Of a stretch of 64,000 bases of DNA, positions 52,176-61,158 are shown one piece after another; the first letter of the stretch is position 1; every line of letters starts with the position of its first letter. The position numbers and the translations under genes were made by a program. The notes beneath the pieces are model-generated. The model was not told the origin of the DNA. It did no database searches and worked only from the letters and a program-made list of their open reading frames with translations. The stretch comes from an uncultured Psychroserpens sp. (lineage in GTDB: Bacteria > Bacteroidota > Bacteroidia > Flavobacteriales > Flavobacteriaceae): the NCBI RefSeq assembly GCF_947501425.1, contig NZ_CANMVN010000010.1:1-64000 (forward strand), read 5' to 3'.

Positions 52176-52325
52176 ATGGAACATTTAAAGAGTTACGAAT
52201 TAACATCACCTGAATTAATTTTTGGCGGCGAAATATACGGAACAACAGCTACAATTTATGGTGAATACTATACAGATGTGTATGATTCTGACACAGGAAA
52301 TATTCGTTTCAAACCTGCATTTTAA
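52176..52325 (+). CDS. gwsA: Grasp-with-spasm RiPP precursor peptide 1 (missed by ORF track)
   Basis: A 49-aa peptide. The leader MEHLKSYELTSPELIFGG ends in double Gly at residues 17-18, as for C39 peptidases. The core EIYGTTATIYGEYYTDVYDSDTGNIRFKPAF is rich in Thr and Asp/Glu, suitable for omega-ester links. DVYDSDTGNIRFKP resembles the conserved end of the other two precursors. It is the first gene of the RiPP cluster. An out-of-frame ATG 5 bases upstream is not used. The function assignment is by context and pattern. Confidence 0.85.
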   Translation: MEHLKSYELTSPELIFGGEIYGTTATIYGEYYTDVYDSDTGNIRFKPAF

Positions 52326-52344: not shown

Positions 52345-52494
52345 ATGAAAAAGTTTACAAAGTTTAAAATTGAAAATACCAACTTGATTTTTGGAGGCGA
52401 TCATTTACCTACAGAATATCCATACGGGACAGATGGTATTGGAAAAGACTTTTATGACGATGTTGCACATGCACTTGTGTTTATAGAGCCATAA
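52345..52494 (+). CDS. gwsA: Grasp-with-spasm RiPP precursor peptide 2
   Basis: A 49-aa peptide beginning MKKFTKFKIENTNLIFGG with the double Gly again at residues 17-18. The ORF track gives a false 90-aa version starting inside precursor 1. The core is DHLPTEYPYGTDGIGKDFYDDVAHALVFIEP. It aligns without gaps to precursor 3 (GKD-x-YD-x-x-AH-x-x-V-x-x-EP). Thr23 and Thr29 are candidate donors, and Asp/Glu in DFYDD and EP are candidate acceptors. It starts 19 bases after precursor 1. Confidence 0.87.
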   Translation: MKKFTKFKIENTNLIFGGDHLPTEYPYGTDGIGKDFYDDVAHALVFIEP

Positions 52495-52603: not shown

Positions 52604-53536
52604 ATGTTAAGAGTTTTATTAATACTATCCATTACGCTTATGAGTTCAACTCATTTGATGGCACAAGAGTTTAATTATAATCCAAAAAATGAAAACAACG
52701 TTGATGACATGAGTTTCAATTTAGCAAAAACGATACTTGAAGAAACTTCTTTACAAGTAAATGAAAATAATGGTAAGCTGAATTATGCCAATTTATGGAA
52801 TATTGCCGTGGCTTATAATCTTCTTGGTAAAACTGCTGATGAAATTATACCCATTTTAGAACGAAGCAAGAAAAAAAATCCTTACAGCTTTTCGTTGATT
52901 TTCACAGAACCTATGAATATCAAAGAGAAATGGCTAAGATGCTTTACTAATGAGGAATACGACCGATGGTATATTGAAGCGCAAAATACTGTAGCGAAGC
53001 ACAAAGCCTTAGCTGAAAAAACAAAAAAGCCTTTTAATGCCAATCAAAAATATGATCCTGAACTTATTAAAGCCATAACTGAAATCAAGTTAGCCGATTC
53101 TAAGTTTCGTGACGCTGGCGACATCAATATGGATAAGCAGCGGCTTATAGATAACGAAAACATGGTTAAAATTGACGCTTTACATGACAAATACAACTGC
53201 TACATTGGGAAATCTATGGTAGGAAAAGACTTGTCTTATGTAATGTGGTCTGTAATTCAACATTCAAATTTAACCTTTATGGAAAAATATTTACCCGTTG
53301 TAAACAAGGCTATTCTGGATAAAGAATTAGACAAAAATGTTATTAAGATGCTTGTAGACAGAATCTATACAATAAAGCATGACAAACAGATTTTTGGTTC
53401 TCAATTAGGCGTTGAGATAGCTACAGATACAGAGGCTCTAGCACTTAAAGAGAAATATAGCTATAAACCATCTAATGTAGCCAAAACAAAAAAAAGAAAG
53501 AAACAAAGTTTTGATGCTTGGTTCAATCAAGACTAA
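52604..53536 (+). CDS. Secreted DUF6624-like protein
   Basis: A 310-aa protein with a Sec signal (MLRVLLILSITLMSSTHLMAQ). The first half is helical. The second half resembles DUF6624: MVKIDALHDKYNCYIGKSMVGKDLSYVMWSVIQHSNLTFMEKYLPVVNKAI followed by MLVDRIYTIKHDKQIFGSQLG. The tail is basic (KTKKRKKQSFDAW). The domain's function is unknown. It lies between precursors 2 and 3 on the same strand, so it may be an immunity, processing or accessory protein of the RiPP system. That is an inference from place only. Confidence 0.75.
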   Translation: MLRVLLILSITLMSSTHLMAQEFNYNPKNENNVDDMSFNLAKTILEETSLQVNENNGKLNYANLWNIAVAYNLLGKTADEIIPILERSKKKNPYSFSLIFTEPMNIKEKWLRCFTNEEYDRWYIEAQNTVAKHKALAEKTKKPFNANQKYDPELIKAITEIKLADSKFRDAGDINMDKQRLIDNENMVKIDALHDKYNCYIGKSMVGKDLSYVMWSVIQHSNLTFMEKYLPVVNKAILDKELDKNVIKMLVDRIYTIKHDKQIFGSQLGVEIATDTEALALKEKYSYKPSNVAKTKKRKKQSFDAWFNQD

Positions 53537-53604: not shown

Positions 53605-53763
53605 ATGGAAAATTTCAATGAATTCGAGCTACAAAATCAGGAAATGATTTTTGGCGGTGAACACCAAAAAACACGTTACACGCATGACAGTGGGTCAAGT
53701 GGTAAAGACCTCTATGACACAGATGCTCATACAATTGTTTATTTTGAGCCAGATTCACCTTGA
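53605..53763 (+). CDS. gwsA: Grasp-with-spasm RiPP precursor peptide 3 (missed by ORF track)
   Basis: A 52-aa peptide whose leader MENFNEFELQNQEMIFGG ends in double Gly at residues 17-18. The core is EHQKTRYTHDSGSSGKDLYDTDAHTIVYFEPDSP. From residue 17 to 49 it aligns without gaps to precursor 2, with identical Gly33-Lys34-Asp35, Tyr37-Asp38, Ala41-His42, Val45 and Glu48-Pro49. It is 77 bases upstream of the ATP-grasp gene, the usual place for a graspetide precursor. Confidence 0.87.
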   Translation: MENFNEFELQNQEMIFGGEHQKTRYTHDSGSSGKDLYDTDAHTIVYFEPDSP

Positions 53764-53840: not shown

Positions 53841-54767
53841 ATGATATATATAATTTCAGAAAAAAAAGATTTAGTAACCGACTTAGTTATTGAGTGGATC
53901 ACAACTAAAAGAAAACAATTCAAACGATTTAATGATGATGAGTTCGTCAAAGATCATAGTCTATTAAAATCCAATGTCAGTAAGTTATGGTTAAGACGCG
54001 GTACATTTAACGTTATACCTAATAAGATCTTTAGTGATTTTTTCAATAGAATTCATATTTTAAATTATTTAAACAGTGAGGTAAGAGAATATAGTATATA
54101 CTTAGAGTATGCTTTAAAAAAACAATTAGAAGACAACTACATTGGATCATTTACCAAAGAGGTCTCTTCCAATAACAAACTCATCAATCTAGACATAGCA
54201 AAAAGTGCTGGTTTCAAGACACCAACAACACTTATTACATCATCAAAAAAAGAACTAATTGAATTTTATAATACTCACAAGTCAATTATAACAAAAGACT
54301 TAAGAGCTCCTGTAAACATAAAAACTAGACACAAAGCACTAATATCAACAGGCGTAAAATTAGTAAACGATCAAATGTTAGCTAAGCTGAAAGAGTATTT
54401 TGCGCCCATATTCATTCAAAAATATATTGAGAAAAAATATGAAATAAGAGTTTTTGTGTTTTCCAAAAAAATGTATGCTATGGCTATTTTTTCTCAAAAA
54501 GATGAGCAAACCAAAATTGATTACAGAAACTATAATACAGTAAAGCAAAATAGATGTGTCCCTATAAATTTGCCTAATAATATTCAGGATAAAATTTGGG
54601 CATTTATGTCCAAAACTCAAATGAATACCGGTTCAATTGATTTAATTGTAACACCTGAAAATGAATTCTATTTTTTAGAAATAAATCCTATGGGGCAATT
54701 CCATTGGTTATCTGCAAATTGTAATTATTACATTGAAAAAGACATCGCAAATTTTTTAACAACATGA
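53841..54767 (+). CDS. gwsG: ATP-grasp peptide maturase, grasp-with-spasm type
   Basis: A 308-aa ATP-grasp ligase expected to activate core Asp/Glu side chains as acyl phosphates and join them to Ser/Thr or Lys. Seen are the N-terminal MIYIISEKKDLVTDLVIEWI, the precursor-binding region, KDLRAPVNIKTR, the nucleotide motif PIFIQKYIEKKYEIRVFVF, and the metal site GSIDLIVTPENEFYFLEINPMGQFHWLS. These match graspetide ligases of the MvdD/MvdC-like type. The stop overlaps the start of the 59-aa gene (ATGA). Confidence 0.9.
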   Translation: MIYIISEKKDLVTDLVIEWITTKRKQFKRFNDDEFVKDHSLLKSNVSKLWLRRGTFNVIPNKIFSDFFNRIHILNYLNSEVREYSIYLEYALKKQLEDNYIGSFTKEVSSNNKLINLDIAKSAGFKTPTTLITSSKKELIEFYNTHKSIITKDLRAPVNIKTRHKALISTGVKLVNDQMLAKLKEYFAPIFIQKYIEKKYEIRVFVFSKKMYAMAIFSQKDEQTKIDYRNYNTVKQNRCVPINLPNNIQDKIWAFMSKTQMNTGSIDLIVTPENEFYFLEINPMGQFHWLSANCNYYIEKDIANFLTT

Positions 54768-54943
54768 CTAAAATAAAATTCAACTCAATAAAAGGCCATT
54801 TTCCATTAACGATTCAAAACGCTAAACTTGTTAATAAAGTGGTCCCTATATTCTCAAAAGGTATTGTTGCTTCAAATTACCAAAGCAATAATGTAAATCA
54901 GCAACAATTTTATAAACCTATTTCCAAAATATTACAATTTTAA
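54764..54943 (+). CDS. 59-aa protein coupled between gwsG and gwsS (missed by ORF track)
   Basis: ATG to TAA encodes MTKIKFNSIKGHFPLTIQNAKLVNK followed by a Gln/Asn-rich stretch and KPISKILQF. It has no leader GG, signal or membrane segment, and is basic. The start overlaps the gwsG stop in ATGA and its stop overlaps the gwsS start in TAATG, so it is likely translated by coupling. No family is recognised. It may be a small maturation factor or a diverged peptide substrate, but nothing shows which. Confidence 0.72.
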   Translation: MTKIKFNSIKGHFPLTIQNAKLVNKVVPIFSKGIVASNYQSNNVNQQQFYKPISKILQF

Positions 54944-56010
54944 TGACCAAAGAAGTTCCTGTTTTATATGCCAGTTGTATTCCTGTTAAAGGTGCAGCTA
55001 AAAGTATCATTTGTGATCTACAAAGACAAAACTATGTTCATATCCCTAATGACTTGTATAATATATTGACTGAACATTCAGGTAAAAGTTTAGAAGAGAT
55101 AAAAATCTTTTATGAAAATAAATATGATAACATTATTGATAATTATTTTCAAATCTTATTTAAACATGATTTTGCTTTTTTAACTGATACTCCAGAATTA
55201 TTTCCTAAACTACAATTAGAATGGCATGAACCCTTTGAGATTACAAATGCTATTGTAGATATTGATTCATCATCAAAGTTTGAATTAAATACGGTTTTAA
55301 ACCAATTAAGTAGCTTAAGTTGCAAGTTTGTTCAAATTCGATTCTATCGAAACACGTCCATAAAAGAAATAGAAAACATCTTTAGATTCTTAAATACTGT
55401 AAAATCAAATTCAATTGGAATTGAGCTCTTAATTCCATTCAACAAAAGCCTTAATGACACTAATTGTCTCCTACTCTTCAAAAACTTTAAAAGATTAAAC
55501 TCGCTAATTGTATATAATTCTCCTCAAGGAAAGAGAATCAAACCAATAGGAAATTCTAAATATTATATAAATACTGGAGTTGATATTACTTCGGAAAAAC
55601 ATTGTGGCTGTATTGATAAGTCCCTATTTTCAATAAACATAAAAGTCTTTAGCGAATCTCAGAAATTCAATTCTTGTTTAAATGGTAAAATTTCAATCGA
55701 TAAAAATGGAGATATAAAAAATTGTCCTTCAATGCCTGATTCTTTTGGTAATATAAATACCAATTCATTAGAGCAGGCAATTTTAGATAAACACTTTAAA
55801 AAATACTGGAATCTTAACAAAGATGATATCGACATCTGCAAAGATTGTGAATTTAGATATATATGCACAGATTGCAGAGCCTATGTTGAAGATCCAGAAA
55901 ACGTCAAAAGTAAACCCTTAAAGTGCGGCTACAATCCCTACAAGGGCGAATGGAAAGATTGGAGTGAGTCTAAATTAAAGAAAGAGAGCATCACATACTA
56001 TAATTTATAA
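54943..56010 (+). CDS. gwsS: SPASM-domain peptide maturase, grasp-with-spasm type
   Basis: A 355-aa protein. Its C-terminal part carries SPASM-type cysteines: HCGC near 221, SC and NCPSMPD around 245-265, then DICKDCEFRYICTDCRAY (about 298-315) and LKCGYNPYKGEW (about 327). These would bind auxiliary iron-sulfur clusters. The N-terminal part resembles a TIM-barrel-like region but has no CxxxCxxC, so the radical-SAM cluster is probably absent. My recollection is that this is typical of the family, but I cannot check. It may bind precursor or act structurally. Confidence 0.87.
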   Translation: MTKEVPVLYASCIPVKGAAKSIICDLQRQNYVHIPNDLYNILTEHSGKSLEEIKIFYENKYDNIIDNYFQILFKHDFAFLTDTPELFPKLQLEWHEPFEITNAIVDIDSSSKFELNTVLNQLSSLSCKFVQIRFYRNTSIKEIENIFRFLNTVKSNSIGIELLIPFNKSLNDTNCLLLFKNFKRLNSLIVYNSPQGKRIKPIGNSKYYINTGVDITSEKHCGCIDKSLFSINIKVFSESQKFNSCLNGKISIDKNGDIKNCPSMPDSFGNINTNSLEQAILDKHFKKYWNLNKDDIDICKDCEFRYICTDCRAYVEDPENVKSKPLKCGYNPYKGEWKDWSESKLKKESITYYNL

Positions 56011-56025
56011 AAGCATTACCCATAT

Positions 56026-58227
56026 ATGAGTTTAAAAAAATTCCCTTTCTACAAGCAAGCAGATTTTAAAGATTGCGGACCAACATGTTTGAAAATTATC
56101 GCAAAATACTATGGGAAAATAATAAACATCCAAAAACTTAGAGATTTATCTGAAACCACCAGAAGCGGAAGTAATCTTAAAAACATAGCCAATGCAGCAG
56201 AGAAAATAGGGTTTAGAAGTTTAGGTGTTAAAATTAGCTTTAAAAAATTGGAAGAAGCAACTCTTCCTTGTTTGGTACATTGGAATAAAGTGCATTTTGT
56301 GGTATTGTATAAAATTAAAAATAACAAATGTTATATTTCAGATCCAGCACATGGTAGATTAGTATATTCCAAGAAAGAATTTATTAAAAGATGGATTGGA
56401 AATAACGCAGATGACACAACACTTGAAGGTGTGACTTTATTATTAGAAACAACACCCAAATTTTATAAAGAAGAAGGTATTAACGATACTGATAATCCAG
56501 ATTTTGGATTTTCATTTTTATTCAAGTACATCTCAAAATACAAGTCGTTTCTAATAAATCTTATCATAGGATTAATAGCTGGAAGTTTAATTTCATTAAT
56601 ATTTCCCTTCTTAACTCAAAGTATTGTAGATGTTGGTATCAGAAATTACGACATACATTTCATCTATCTAATACTATTGGCTCAATTATTCCTTTTTATG
56701 GGAAGAACCGCAATAAACATCCTAAGAAGTTGGATTTTATTGCACTTAAGCACACGTATTAACATCTCATTGATATCAGATTTTTTTATAAAACTCATGA
56801 GTTTACCAATTTCATTCTTTGATGTGCGAATGACAGGAGACATTCTTCAACGAATAAATGATCATAAAAGAATTGAAACCATTCTAACTTCCTCTTCGCT
56901 TAACACTTTATTCTCAACTATAAATCTTATCATATTTGGTGGAGTCCTAGCCTGGTATAATGGATACATCTTTCTCATCTTCATCATTGGTACTGTGTCC
57001 TATTTTTCGTGGGTACTTTTCTTTTTCAAAAAACGAAGAGATCTCGATTATAAACGCTTCTCTCAAGTTAGTCAGGAACAGAGTAAAGTCATTGAACTCA
57101 TTAACGGAATGCAAGAAATAAAACTACATAATGCCGAAAAACAAAAACGATGGAATTGGGAATATTTACAAGCCAAATTATTTAAAATATCAATCAAAAG
57201 TCTCGCATTAGAGCAATATCAATCTGTTGGTTCATCTTTCATCAATGAATTAAAAAATATTCTAATTACTGTTCTTTCCGCAAAACTAGTAATAGATGGT
57301 GAAATCACCTTAGGAATGATGCTAGCCATAACATATATTGTCGGACAATTAAATTCTCCTGTTGGACAAATCATTAATTTTTTAAAAGAATGGCAAGATG
57401 CAAAAATATCCCTAGAGCGATTATCAGAAATACACAACAAAGAAGACGAAGAGCAACAGGATATAGACAAAATAAATGACATCCCAATTAATGAGGTTTT
57501 AAACGTCAATAATATTTCGTTCAAATATGTTGGCTCCAGTAAAATAGTTCTTAAAGATTTAACGCTTCAAATTCCAGCTAATAAAGTCACTGCTATAGTA
57601 GGTGTAAGCGGAAGTGGTAAAACAACGCTCATGAAGCTACTTTTAAAATTTTATGAAACAACTAAAGGAAACCTAACCTTGGGTAATATTGATTTAAAAA
57701 ATATATCACAAACCTCATGGAGAGAAAATTGTGGTGTGGTCATGCAAGAAGGGTATATTTTTAGTGACACGATAGCTAATAATGTTGCAGTAGGCGTAGA
57801 TCAAATCGATAAAAACAAACTTAAAAACGCTTTAAAAACGGCATGTATCCAAGAGTTTGTAGAGAGTTTACCTTTATCTTACAACACAAAAATAGGTATG
57901 GAAGGCATTGGCTTAAGCACAGGTCAAAAACAACGAATTTTAATAGCCCGAGCTGTATATAAAAATCCAAAATTTTTATTTTTTGACGAAGCAACATCGT
58001 CACTTGATGCCAATAATGAAAAGAAAATAATGGAAAATCTCAATCTATTCTTTGAAAACAAAACTGTAGTTGTTATTGCACATCGCCTTAGTACTGTTAA
58101 AAACGCTCATCAAATCATTGTTTTAAAAGATGGAAAAGCCATAGAAATTGGACCTCACGATGAATTAGTGAAACTGAAAGGTGATTATTATGAATTAGTG
58201 AAAAATCAATTAGAATTAGGAAAATAA
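56026..58227 (+). CDS. Peptidase-containing ABC exporter (C39)
   Basis: A 733-aa exporter that cuts the leader after double Gly and pumps out the peptide. The N-terminal C39 protease has Cys17 in KDCGPTCL, His near 89 in WNKVHFVVLY and Asp near 106 in ISDPAHG. A six-helix membrane domain follows (about 165-460). The ATPase has Walker A GVSGSGKTT (about 525), the signature LSTGQKQR (about 630), Walker B FLFFDEATSSLD and the H-loop AHRLST. It follows gwsS by 15 bases and is complete. Confidence 0.96.
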   Translation: MSLKKFPFYKQADFKDCGPTCLKIIAKYYGKIINIQKLRDLSETTRSGSNLKNIANAAEKIGFRSLGVKISFKKLEEATLPCLVHWNKVHFVVLYKIKNNKCYISDPAHGRLVYSKKEFIKRWIGNNADDTTLEGVTLLLETTPKFYKEEGINDTDNPDFGFSFLFKYISKYKSFLINLIIGLIAGSLISLIFPFLTQSIVDVGIRNYDIHFIYLILLAQLFLFMGRTAINILRSWILLHLSTRINISLISDFFIKLMSLPISFFDVRMTGDILQRINDHKRIETILTSSSLNTLFSTINLIIFGGVLAWYNGYIFLIFIIGTVSYFSWVLFFFKKRRDLDYKRFSQVSQEQSKVIELINGMQEIKLHNAEKQKRWNWEYLQAKLFKISIKSLALEQYQSVGSSFINELKNILITVLSAKLVIDGEITLGMMLAITYIVGQLNSPVGQIINFLKEWQDAKISLERLSEIHNKEDEEQQDIDKINDIPINEVLNVNNISFKYVGSSKIVLKDLTLQIPANKVTAIVGVSGSGKTTLMKLLLKFYETTKGNLTLGNIDLKNISQTSWRENCGVVMQEGYIFSDTIANNVAVGVDQIDKNKLKNALKTACIQEFVESLPLSYNTKIGMEGIGLSTGQKQRILIARAVYKNPKFLFFDEATSSLDANNEKKIMENLNLFFENKTVVVIAHRLSTVKNAHQIIVLKDGKAIEIGPHDELVKLKGDYYELVKNQLELGK

Positions 58228-58857
58228 ATGTCAGATTCAGAAAAAAAAGATATTAAATCGATAGAAATTATTCCTCCAGAAGGAAAGGCTTCTATGGGAT
58301 TTACCATCAAAGGAGAGGATGGTAAAACCATAACTGTAACCAACCCTAAAATTATAGTTAAACAATCCCCAAATGAAGATATAACTCTTAGAGATGAAAA
58401 TGTTCAGGAGATACTTACAAGTGCTCCCCATTGGATGATACGATGGGGTAACATACTATTTCTAAGCTTAGTCCTTCTCATTTTATTCTTAGCTTGGTTT
58501 ATCAAATACCCTGATACCATAAGCGAAAAAGTTAGTATCGAGCAAGAACTAAATAGTAATACTCATGTTGGATATATTACCTCTAAGAATTTTACTTTTG
58601 AAAAAGTTAAAAAGGGACAAATCGTACAATTATCTTTACTTGTGTATCCTGAATATGAAAATGGTGTTGTAATGGCTGTGGTGGACACCGTATTCTGGAA
58701 TAAACCCTTAAAGCAATATGAAGCAAAAATTAGTTTACCACAAGGGTTAACTACCACCTATGAAGTAGATATAAACCCAAACACCAACTTGGAAGCTCAG
58801 GCTAAAATCATCCTAAAAGACAAACGTTTGATTGAACATATTTTCAATCTTAAATAA
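58228..58857 (+). CDS. Short HlyD-like secretion accessory protein
   Basis: A 209-aa protein starting with no gap after the exporter. A hydrophilic N-terminus is followed by one membrane helix (GNILFLSLVLLILFLAWFI, about 74-92) and a periplasmic beta-rich segment with GYITSKNFTFEKVKKGQIVQLSLLVYPEY, resembling the barrel part of HlyD proteins. The coiled-coil hairpin and lipoyl halves are missing, so it is about half the usual length. No continuation exists in other frames before the terminator. It probably pairs with the C39 exporter. Confidence 0.72.
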   Translation: MSDSEKKDIKSIEIIPPEGKASMGFTIKGEDGKTITVTNPKIIVKQSPNEDITLRDENVQEILTSAPHWMIRWGNILFLSLVLLILFLAWFIKYPDTISEKVSIEQELNSNTHVGYITSKNFTFEKVKKGQIVQLSLLVYPEYENGVVMAVVDTVFWNKPLKQYEAKISLPQGLTTTYEVDINPNTNLEAQAKIILKDKRLIEHIFNLK

Positions 58858-59014: not shown

Positions 59015-60037
59015 ATGACTCACGAATTTAAAGATATCGTATACCAGGCAAAGACTAACCAACAAAATGGATTGAAAAACGTCCTTGCAACTGTGGTTTT
59101 TCTTGAAGGGTCTTCTTACAGAAAACCAGGAGTGCGGATGCTTATTTCTGAAAATGGAATACTGACTGGTGCTGTTAGTGGAGGTTGTGTTGAAAGTGAA
59201 ATTAACCGTCGTGCACAATCTGTTTTTAAAGATGATAAGGCAAAAGTCATGACCTATGATGGTCGTTATCGATTGGGATGCGAGGGTATTTTATATATTC
59301 TTATCGAACCTTTTACCATCTCTGATGATTTCCTAAAAGTTTTTCAGTACACTTTGAACACGAGACAATCGTTTACAATAACATCATATTATAAAAAGGA
59401 AGATGGTGCTTTTGGTGACTTTGGAAGTGTTTTTTCCATAAACAATGACACTAATTTTTCATTTTCCGAAGCATACAAAACAAATGACATAAGTCATCTA
59501 GAATACTTCTCTCAAACACTACAGCCTAGTACCAGATTATTGATTATTGGAGGTGAACATGATGCTGTAAAGCTATGTAGCATGTCTAGTTTATTGGGCT
59601 GGGAAGTTGATATCATCACTTCTATAAAAGACCCAAAACAAATCTCTGATTTCCCCGGAGCTAAATCAGTTTCAGCTCAAACTCCTGAAATTGTAAATCT
59701 CGAAATTGACACTGAAACGGTTGTTGTTTTAATGACACACAACTATGTTCAAGATCTAAAGTATTTACTCAAATTAGAACCCTTACAACCTAAGTATATT
59801 GGAATATTAGGATCATCAAAACGAAGAGAACAATTAAAAAATGAGTTGTTTCACTACAATCCAGAACTTTCTGAAGACTTTCTGAAAAGCATCTATAGTC
59901 CTTCTGGTCTACATATTGGAGCTATCACTCCCGAAGAAATTGCTCTATCCATCTTAGCTGAAATACTATCAGTAATTAGAGGTACTCAAACAGTCTCGCT
60001 TAGAACACTAAAAGGTAAAACACATTTTAGCAAATGA
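59015..60037 (+). CDS. xdhC: XdhC/CoxI family molybdenum-cofactor maturation protein
   Basis: A 340-aa XdhC-type protein, which binds, sulfurates or inserts the Mo cofactor into xanthine dehydrogenase-family enzymes. The N-terminal domain has VVFLEGSSYRKPGVRMLISENGILTGAVSGGCVESEI. A Rossmann domain starts near RLLIIGGEHDAVKLCSMSSLLGWEVDII, and GILGSSKRREQL plus the C-terminal SPSGLHIGAITPEEIALSILAEIL match the family. Its stop overlaps the next gene (ATGA), the first of four co-directional Mo-enzyme genes. Confidence 0.94.
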   Translation: MTHEFKDIVYQAKTNQQNGLKNVLATVVFLEGSSYRKPGVRMLISENGILTGAVSGGCVESEINRRAQSVFKDDKAKVMTYDGRYRLGCEGILYILIEPFTISDDFLKVFQYTLNTRQSFTITSYYKKEDGAFGDFGSVFSINNDTNFSFSEAYKTNDISHLEYFSQTLQPSTRLLIIGGEHDAVKLCSMSSLLGWEVDIITSIKDPKQISDFPGAKSVSAQTPEIVNLEIDTETVVVLMTHNYVQDLKYLLKLEPLQPKYIGILGSSKRREQLKNELFHYNPELSEDFLKSIYSPSGLHIGAITPEEIALSILAEILSVIRGTQTVSLRTLKGKTHFSK

Positions 60038-60615
60038 CAGTTGCCATCACAATCTTAGCAGCAGGAAGTTCTTCTCGAATGAAAAAAATAAAGCAATTAT
60101 TACCCATTCAAAACAGCACTTTATTAGGTATAGCCATTGAAAATGCATTGCAATCTGATGCTGATCAGGTGTATTGTGTTTTAGGTGCTAACGCTGATTT
60201 AATCACTAATTCAATACAAAACTCAAATATTAAGATTATATACAACCCGAAGTATTCTGAAGGCTTGAGCTCAAGTATCATTGCAGGTATTGAGTATATG
60301 TCATCCAAACCATTTGATGCTACACTGATCATGCTTGGAGATCAACCAATGGTAGATTCAGAATATCTAAACAAGTTAATTATAAATTTTAAAGGGAATC
60401 CATCTCAAGTCGTTGCTTCAGAATATTCAGATAAAATAGGTGTTCCTGCTATTTTTCCAAAGACATTTTACAATCAGCTATTACAACTAAACGGCGATAA
60501 AGGAGCAAGTCTTCTTTTAAATTCTGAAACGATAAATATCAAAACTGTTACAGGAAGTTCTTTGGTAGATATTGATACAGAGGAAGATTACAACAGTTTT
60601 ATCAATTCTTTATAA
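60034..60615 (+). CDS. MocA-like molybdenum cofactor nucleotidyltransferase
   Basis: A 193-aa GT-A fold nucleotidyltransferase. The N-terminal ITILAAGSSSRMKKIKQLLPIQNSTLLG is the NTP-binding loop, NPKYSEGLSSSIIAGIEYM follows, and the metal motif is LGDQPMVDSEYL. Its place between xdhC and the Mo-hydroxylase subunits suggests CTP:molybdopterin cytidylyltransferase (MocA), which makes the cytosine form of the cofactor. The base specificity (CTP or GTP) is not proven by sequence. Confidence 0.87.
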   Translation: MTVAITILAAGSSSRMKKIKQLLPIQNSTLLGIAIENALQSDADQVYCVLGANADLITNSIQNSNIKIIYNPKYSEGLSSSIIAGIEYMSSKPFDATLIMLGDQPMVDSEYLNKLIINFKGNPSQVVASEYSDKIGVPAIFPKTFYNQLLQLNGDKGASLLLNSETINIKTVTGSSLVDIDTEEDYNSFINSL

Positions 60616-60696
60616 TTTATTTATTTGTTTATAAAATGTTATAGTCAGAGCATTTCAGTTAAATATTTTTTAACTTTAGCTAAATATCTAACAATC

Positions 60697-61158
60697 ATGG
60701 CAATATTTAATTTAAAGATCAACGGAAAAAAAGTTGATGTAGACGCAGACAAAGACACTCCTTTACTTTGGGTACTTCGCGATAAACTTAATCTAGTAGG
60801 TACAAAATTTGGATGTGGAATTGCGCAATGTGGTGCTTGTACTGTTCATTTAGATGGTACAGCAGTGAGGAGCTGTTCGCTACCAATATCTAGTTTAGAA
60901 GATGCAAATATCACTACCATTGAAGGACTTGCAAAAGATGAGTTGCATCCTGTACAAGAAGCCTGGAAAGAACTTGATGTACCTCAATGTGGTTATTGCC
61001 AAGCTGGTCAGATTATGACAGCCACCTCTTTTTTAAAAGAGAATCCTAGTCCTAGCACCCAAGATATTAGAACCGCAATGAATGGGAACCTCTGCAGATG
61101 CGCAAGTTATAATAGAATAGAAAAAGCTGTAGCACTAGCTGCAAAAAAAATGTCATAA
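60697..61158 (+). CDS. Molybdenum hydroxylase [2Fe-2S] subunit (IorA-like)
   Basis: The small electron-transfer subunit. The start at MAIFNLKINGKKVDVDADKDTPLLWVLRDKL is the family start. The ORF-track start 24 codons upstream (TTG) has no support. The plant-type ferredoxin domain has CGIAQCGACTVHLDG, and the C-terminal helical domain holds the second cluster with CGYCQAGQIMTATSFL and GNLCRCASYNRI. About 153 aa, matching isoquinoline 1-oxidoreductase alpha subunits. The large subunit starts 10 bases later. Confidence 0.93.
   Translation: MAIFNLKINGKKVDVDADKDTPLLWVLRDKLNLVGTKFGCGIAQCGACTVHLDGTAVRSCSLPISSLEDANITTIEGLAKDELHPVQEAWKELDVPQCGYCQAGQIMTATSFLKENPSPSTQDIRTAMNGNLCRCASYNRIEKAVALAAKKMS

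Follow-up and report, generated by a model that had tools for sequence, protein, structure and literature searches.

Makarova et al. 2022 (Biol Direct, PMC8939145) predicted a family of small proteins, the LPL family, in the graspetide gene clusters of branch 5; by their account, no other poorly characterised group is larger. The genes of this family were described as lying 'always directly upstream of the SPASM gene', and their products as resembling the graspetide recognition motif Phhx(1,2)h, which is absent from the branch-5 precursors. A PqqD-like chaperone role was proposed for them, and LPL-lacking small proteins found at the same position were regarded as unrelated. For another graspetide system, Carter et al. 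2026 (PMC13097080) reported the first case of a graspetide synthetase that depends on a partner: the ATP-grasp enzyme MirB requires MirC, which has an RRE-like domain, and the two co-purify. The same study states that group 14 is in all cases accompanied by a SPASM protein; in our reading this group is probably identical with branch 5. In the microviridin ligase MdnC, the leader is bound by residues E191, D192 and N195 (PMC7823629). No characterised member of branch 5 (probably group 14) was found in the literature surveyed, and the literature search returned neither experiments on any LPL protein nor later work on the family.

The window, i.e. the whole stretch of 64,000 nucleotides that was analysed, carries a grasp-with-SPASM (gws) locus, of which all genes named here with coordinates are on the forward strand. 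gwsG (54767 being its last base, 53841-54767) encodes an ATP-grasp peptide maturase, or graspetide synthetase, of 308 aa (TIGR04192, E 8.2e-70), and gwsS (54943-56010) encodes a SPASM protein of 355 aa (TIGR04193, E 9.3e-107). Between the two lies a small ORF of 59 codons (54764-54943; MTKIKFNSIKGHFPLTIQNAKLVNKVVPIFSKGIVASNYQSNNVNQQQFYKPISKILQF) with its ATG at 54764 and its TAA at 54941-54943. It overlaps gwsG by ATGA, the gwsG stop TGA being located at 54765-54767, and gwsS by TAATG, as the gwsS ATG at 54943 has one base in common with the TAA. These coordinates and overlaps agree exactly with the original prediction. Dinucleotide shuffling of the interval yielded an ATG ORF of 59 aa in 0 of 2000 cases, and by such shuffles 0.0 of 98 loci would be expected to carry one by chance.

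Upstream of gwsG, two GG-leader precursor peptide genes could be located at 53605-53763 (52 aa; MENFNEFELQNQEMIFGG, then EHQKTRY...), homologous to a precursor in locus L079, and at 52345-52494 (49 aa; MKKFTKFKIENTNLIFGG, then DHLPTEY...), starting at an internal ATG of a listed 90-aa ORF. A further, probable one at 52176-52325 (49 aa; MEHLKSYELTSPELIFGG, then EIYGTT...) was read from the sequence by eye. The three precursors are mutually dissimilar and have Asp/Thr-rich cores. A gene for a DUF6624 protein is situated among them (52604-53536; PF20329, E 3.9e-07). Downstream of gwsS, a peptidase-containing ABC exporter of the GG-leader type is encoded (56026-58227; NHLM_micro_ABC1 and bacteriocin_ABC, both below cut-off), directly followed by a membrane protein gene without an NCBIfam match (58228-58857), whose product is, judging from position and sequence, probably the accessory (HlyD-like) partner of the exporter. 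The region beyond the cluster (59015-61158) contains XdhC/MocA-like genes and the gene for the 2Fe-2S subunit of a xanthine-dehydrogenase-type enzyme, which are apparently unrelated.

The small ORF has no NCBIfam or Pfam match at E<=1, so that the term 'unannotated' is valid for these two collections. Although no family had been recognised in the original prediction, the ORF, which is a real and conserved gene, fits the known but uncharacterised LPL family, both by the published description and by our own profile. It belongs to a TIGR04192/TIGR04193 locus, lies directly upstream of the SPASM gene and is free of a GG motif. At the aligned place of the LPL signature it reads FPL instead of LPL (FPLTI, residues 13-17; 54800-54814), and its residues 39-57 (YQSNNVNQQQFYKPISKIL; 54878-54934) align with the C-terminal family motif Y[QN][TS]...KP[IL][ST][KR][IL]. 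With an LPL profile trained on 51 members carrying the LPL-type motif, from which the window ORF was left out, it scored 31.9 bits, whereas none of 1049 decoy ORFs exceeded 7.8 bits and none of 2250 shuffles exceeded 10.7 bits.

Motif-bearing and motif-less members share the N-terminal (L/F)PLxF, the Y[QN][TS] and the C-terminal KP[IL][ST][KR][IL] blocks, joined by a variable linker. Among the motif-less members, 40 of 45 scored above the 99th percentile of the decoys, and a profile-profile comparison of the two halves gave a P of 2.7e-10. By these comparisons, most of the position-equivalent proteins without the LPL motif belong to the same family, which is a new element of this analysis. When 327 genomes from across the phylum were searched with a 25-sequence family profile, 11 matches at E<=1e-3 resulted, and all 11 were situated in gwsG-gwsS intervals, the family thus being found only in gws loci.

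A BLAST search with the window ORF alone gave nothing convincing in 98 relatives, since the ORF is too short and too diverged; the family is visible only via gene position and profiles. Related loci were gathered by family models of gwsS and gwsG, and the interval was read in each. The survey comprised 100 distinct gwsG-gwsS intervals of Bacteroidota; counts out of 98 include one duplicate, locus L031, which coincides with L137 and was the only locus obtained from a scan of named genomes with a single protein. An intact ATG ORF of 43-76 aa was present in 97 of the 100 intervals. In two others (L126 and L152) the frame is open without an ATG, and in L109 (genome G1044) the ORF is frameshifted, in a cluster that has also gained another gene. 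Adjacent gwsG and gwsS genes with no ORF in between, and frameshifted copies of the ORF, had been named beforehand as observations that would speak against it; the former occurred in none of the 100 intervals, and the latter in L109 only.

The LPL gene directly follows gwsG in all loci surveyed, and its start positions cluster at the gwsG stop, with ATGA in 37 of 98 loci and a location between -41 and +15 nt in 91 of 98. It is directly upstream of gwsS in at least 79 of 98. In nine loci (L092, L102, L103, L105, L106, L107, L112, L119 and L137) a DUF6624 gene, of the same family as the neighbour in the window, separates it from gwsS, and the LPL gene stays with gwsG. One of these, L112, contains two gwsG copies (one broken), each followed by its own LPL gene, on a stretch with one gwsS. 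The original prediction had tied the ORF to both maturases as a possible small partner; a probable partner it remains, but the tie is asymmetric, with an invariant adjacency to gwsG and an adjacency to gwsS that is broken in nine loci. The reverse natural experiment, an LPL gene without gwsS, was not found, because all eight candidate places for gwsG without gwsS hold a diverged gwsS along with the LPL gene.

Some further observations were made in the course of this survey. DUF6624 genes shift about within gws clusters, and some clusters have more than one copy. Where it was read closely, the gene following the LPL gene overlaps the LPL stop by ATGA at its start, and its product has a lipoprotein-like N-terminus. 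Broken copies of gwsG or of the LPL gene occur in several clusters (L112, L087 and L109). In L087 (G017), from a species of the window's own genus, gwsG is split across two frames, and in L109 a GLPGLI-type gene lies near the frameshifted LPL gene.

For 22 closely related pairs, the pooled pN/pS was 0.20 for both the small protein and gwsG, and 0.23 for gwsS. The ORF is accordingly as constrained as both of its neighbours, and the earlier expectation that it is translated is borne out by this purifying selection and by its retention in the related intervals.

The partial correlation of pairwise distances was higher between LPL and GwsG (0.61) than between LPL and GwsS (0.38; bootstrap 99.6%). 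For the N-terminal block, values of 0.51 with GwsG versus 0.14 with GwsS were obtained (bootstrap 0.998). The C-terminal block gave 0.45 with GwsG versus 0.37 with GwsS over all loci, and 0.45 with GwsS versus 0.29 with GwsG outside the largest clade (bootstrap 0.96). The interaction of block and partner was supported by bootstrapping, at 0.95 with all loci and at 0.999 when the largest clade was left out. A control with GwsG domains had a mixed outcome, and DNA linkage could contribute in part to the block-wise signal. The statistics support that the N-terminal block goes with GwsG and that, outside the largest clade, the C-terminal block goes at least as well with GwsS.

The nearest solved structure to GwsG is MdnC (5IG9), both by sequence (PDB E 3.5e-56) and by fold, and the catalytic D[FYHIW]R motif is kept in 69 of 74 GwsG proteins. 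The radical-SAM motif CxxxCxxC was found in 0 of 74 GwsS homologues and is likewise missing from GwsS of the window. The fold of GwsS was compared by Foldseek on a model of the homologue from L076, which is of moderate confidence (mean pLDDT 62). This model is similar to TigE, CteB and SuiB; for its N-terminal part, a match to the RRE of TbiB1 was obtained (prob 0.99-1.00, target TM 0.66-0.67). As modelled, GwsS looks like an RRE followed by a degenerate radical-SAM barrel and a C-terminal SPASM domain, and this annotated SPASM peptide maturase may serve as a non-catalytic scaffold.

As had been suggested with the original prediction, complexes with GwsG and GwsS were modelled. AlphaFold was given stand-ins for the complex, i.e. 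the natural in-frame gwsG+LPL or LPL+gwsS sequences that some loci have, with the stop codon in between; these read-through fusions are a modelling device only and imply no actual read-through. LPL was predicted to be disordered behind GwsG (pLDDT about 35-43) as well as before GwsS (27-39), with at most two low-confidence strands in both models, and it was docked on neither protein. Because the alignments were mostly unpaired, this lack of docking is uninformative rather than negative, and because neither partner was docked, the mechanism described below is one that we infer.

Taken together, we propose, with a probability of about 0.45, that LPL is a non-catalytic protein dedicated to the grasp-with-SPASM machinery as its third component, acting as a flexible adaptor and activator of GwsG that links it to GwsS. 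The N-terminal (L/F)PL block would bind the ATP-grasp ligase GwsG, and the C-terminal Y[QN][TS]...KPI[ST][KR]I block would reach GwsS. If the RRE-like domain of GwsS holds the precursor leader, LPL would therefore unite leader recognition with the ligase and switch the ligase on. Presence of the ORF across the 100 intervals, its constant place after gwsG even where a DUF6624 gene parts it from gwsS, the restriction of the profile matches to gwsG-gwsS intervals, the two gwsG-LPL pairs of L112, a pN/pS equal to that of the enzymes, the covariation, the fold of GwsS and the MirC precedent argue for this role. Against it count the disorder of LPL in the fusions, the C-terminal block being slightly closer to GwsG over all loci, the possible share of DNA linkage in the covariation, and the MdnC pocket residues E191/D192/N195, which are not conserved in GwsG. 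A more specific version is put forward tentatively: a catalytically dead radical-SAM/SPASM protein would hold the leader by its RRE-like domain, and the disordered, bivalent LPL of some 60 residues would clip this protein to the ligase and activate the latter. Such a separate two-part module, to which the synthetase would have ceded leader recognition, would, if true, explain the tolerance of branch 5 for extremely diverse cores.

Ranked next, and possible although rather doubtful, is a role as a leader in trans for GwsG alone. LPL would then replace the recognition helix missing from the precursor and activate the ligase as PFFARFL does for MdnC, with GwsS acting separately on the same precursor. 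We collected 110 GG-type precursor candidates upstream of gwsG from 84 loci, a pattern-based set that includes some false positives. None of their leaders contains Phhx(1,2)h, whereas a strict match is present in 42 of 98 LPL proteins; at this place the window ORF has PLTIQ, in the form hydrophobic-T-hydrophobic. The likeness of LPL to this motif had already been pointed out by Makarova et al. (PMC8939145), and the microviridin leader is active in trans in vitro (PMC7823629). The overall covariation of LPL, higher with GwsG than with GwsS, and its persistence beside gwsG when parted from gwsS point in the same direction. However, docking of a leader on GwsG in the MdnC manner is unsupported, the contact residues not being conserved, and the anchoring segment of the MdnC type is shortened in the very clade with the cleanest LPL motif. 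With a leader for GwsG alone, there is also no explanation of why the C-terminal block is conserved and covaries with GwsS, and LPL was not docked on GwsG in the fusion model.

The proposal by Makarova et al. 2022 (PMC8939145) of a PqqD-like precursor chaperone, which would bind the leader and pass it on to the SPASM protein, agrees with the conservation of LPL and with its usual place directly upstream of gwsS, but seems improbable to us. Such a role looks superfluous because GwsS appears to have its own RRE-like, probably leader-binding fold (Foldseek prob of 1.00 to the TbiB1 RRE) and lacks the radical-SAM cluster motif. Moreover, the winged-helix fold of PqqD/RRE proteins takes about 80-90 aa, whereas LPL has 43-76 aa and is predicted to be disordered in both models, and in nine loci it is not beside gwsS at all.

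That LPL might be a diverged substrate, i.e. a precursor peptide of both enzymes, had been considered in the original prediction, and is unlikely. The protein is small, encoded in the cluster, and contains Thr/Ser and mostly a few Asp/Glu. Yet it has no GG leader, as had been noted from the outset, and no GG site before a Thr/Ser-Asp/Glu core; the 98 members show a single chance GG, and true GG precursors are located upstream. LPL is basic, with a net charge of +8 in the window and a family mean of +6, and its conservation extends to both ends instead of being confined to a leader. One copy is present per gwsG, as opposed to multiple, dissimilar precursors. For 21 matched precursor pairs, a few of which are not clean orthologues, pN/pS was 0.18 in the leader and 0.48 in the core, and with its value of 0.20 the small protein evolves like an enzyme or a leader and not like a core peptide. 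It is hardly credible that the frame serves translational coupling of gwsG and gwsS only, with an irrelevant product, for despite the overlaps at both ends there is purifying selection at the amino-acid level with common motifs in about 100 loci, and the ORF persists where gwsS is not adjacent.

If GwsG does need LPL, heterologous expression of a precursor with only the ATP-grasp enzyme would be unsuccessful, as was the case for rosaritide when MirC was missing, and adding the unannotated ORF would be a simple, testable way of opening up a large untapped set of cyclic peptides. A SPASM protein without the radical-SAM cluster motif would at the same time gain a non-catalytic role.

Compared with the LPL family as described (PMC8939145), the protein studied here is likewise small, without a GG site, encoded between ATP-grasp and SPASM (TIGR04193) genes in Bacteroidota, and provided with an LPL-like N-terminal motif. 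It differs in reading FPL, nine loci break the published gene order, and most LPL-lacking proteins prove to be of the same family, with the C-terminal motif in common. Besides this unification, it is new that the gene is tied more closely to gwsG than to gwsS, that the two blocks covary with the enzymes in different ways, that GwsS looks RRE-like and lacks the cluster motif, and that Phhx(1,2)h is missing from the 110 candidate leaders but present in 42 of 98 LPL proteins. With PqqD/RRE chaperones, LPL shares the position of a small accessory encoded beside a SPASM gene, but it has no predicted RRE fold, the RRE-like fold being that of GwsS itself. The microviridin leader PFFARFL and MdnC (5IG9) offer a proposed recognition element of the same kind, Pro followed by hydrophobic residues, for an enzyme of the same family and the one closest to GwsG among solved structures, although LPL is a separate gene outside the precursor and the MdnC contacts are not retained. 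MirC (PMC13097080) is similar in being non-catalytic, in being encoded strictly together with an ATP-grasp graspetide synthetase and in being required for the activity of that enzyme. With its RRE-like and SurA-like domains, however, MirC comprises about 315 aa, while LPL has about 60 aa and is predicted to be disordered, and in gws clusters the RRE-like part resides in GwsS.
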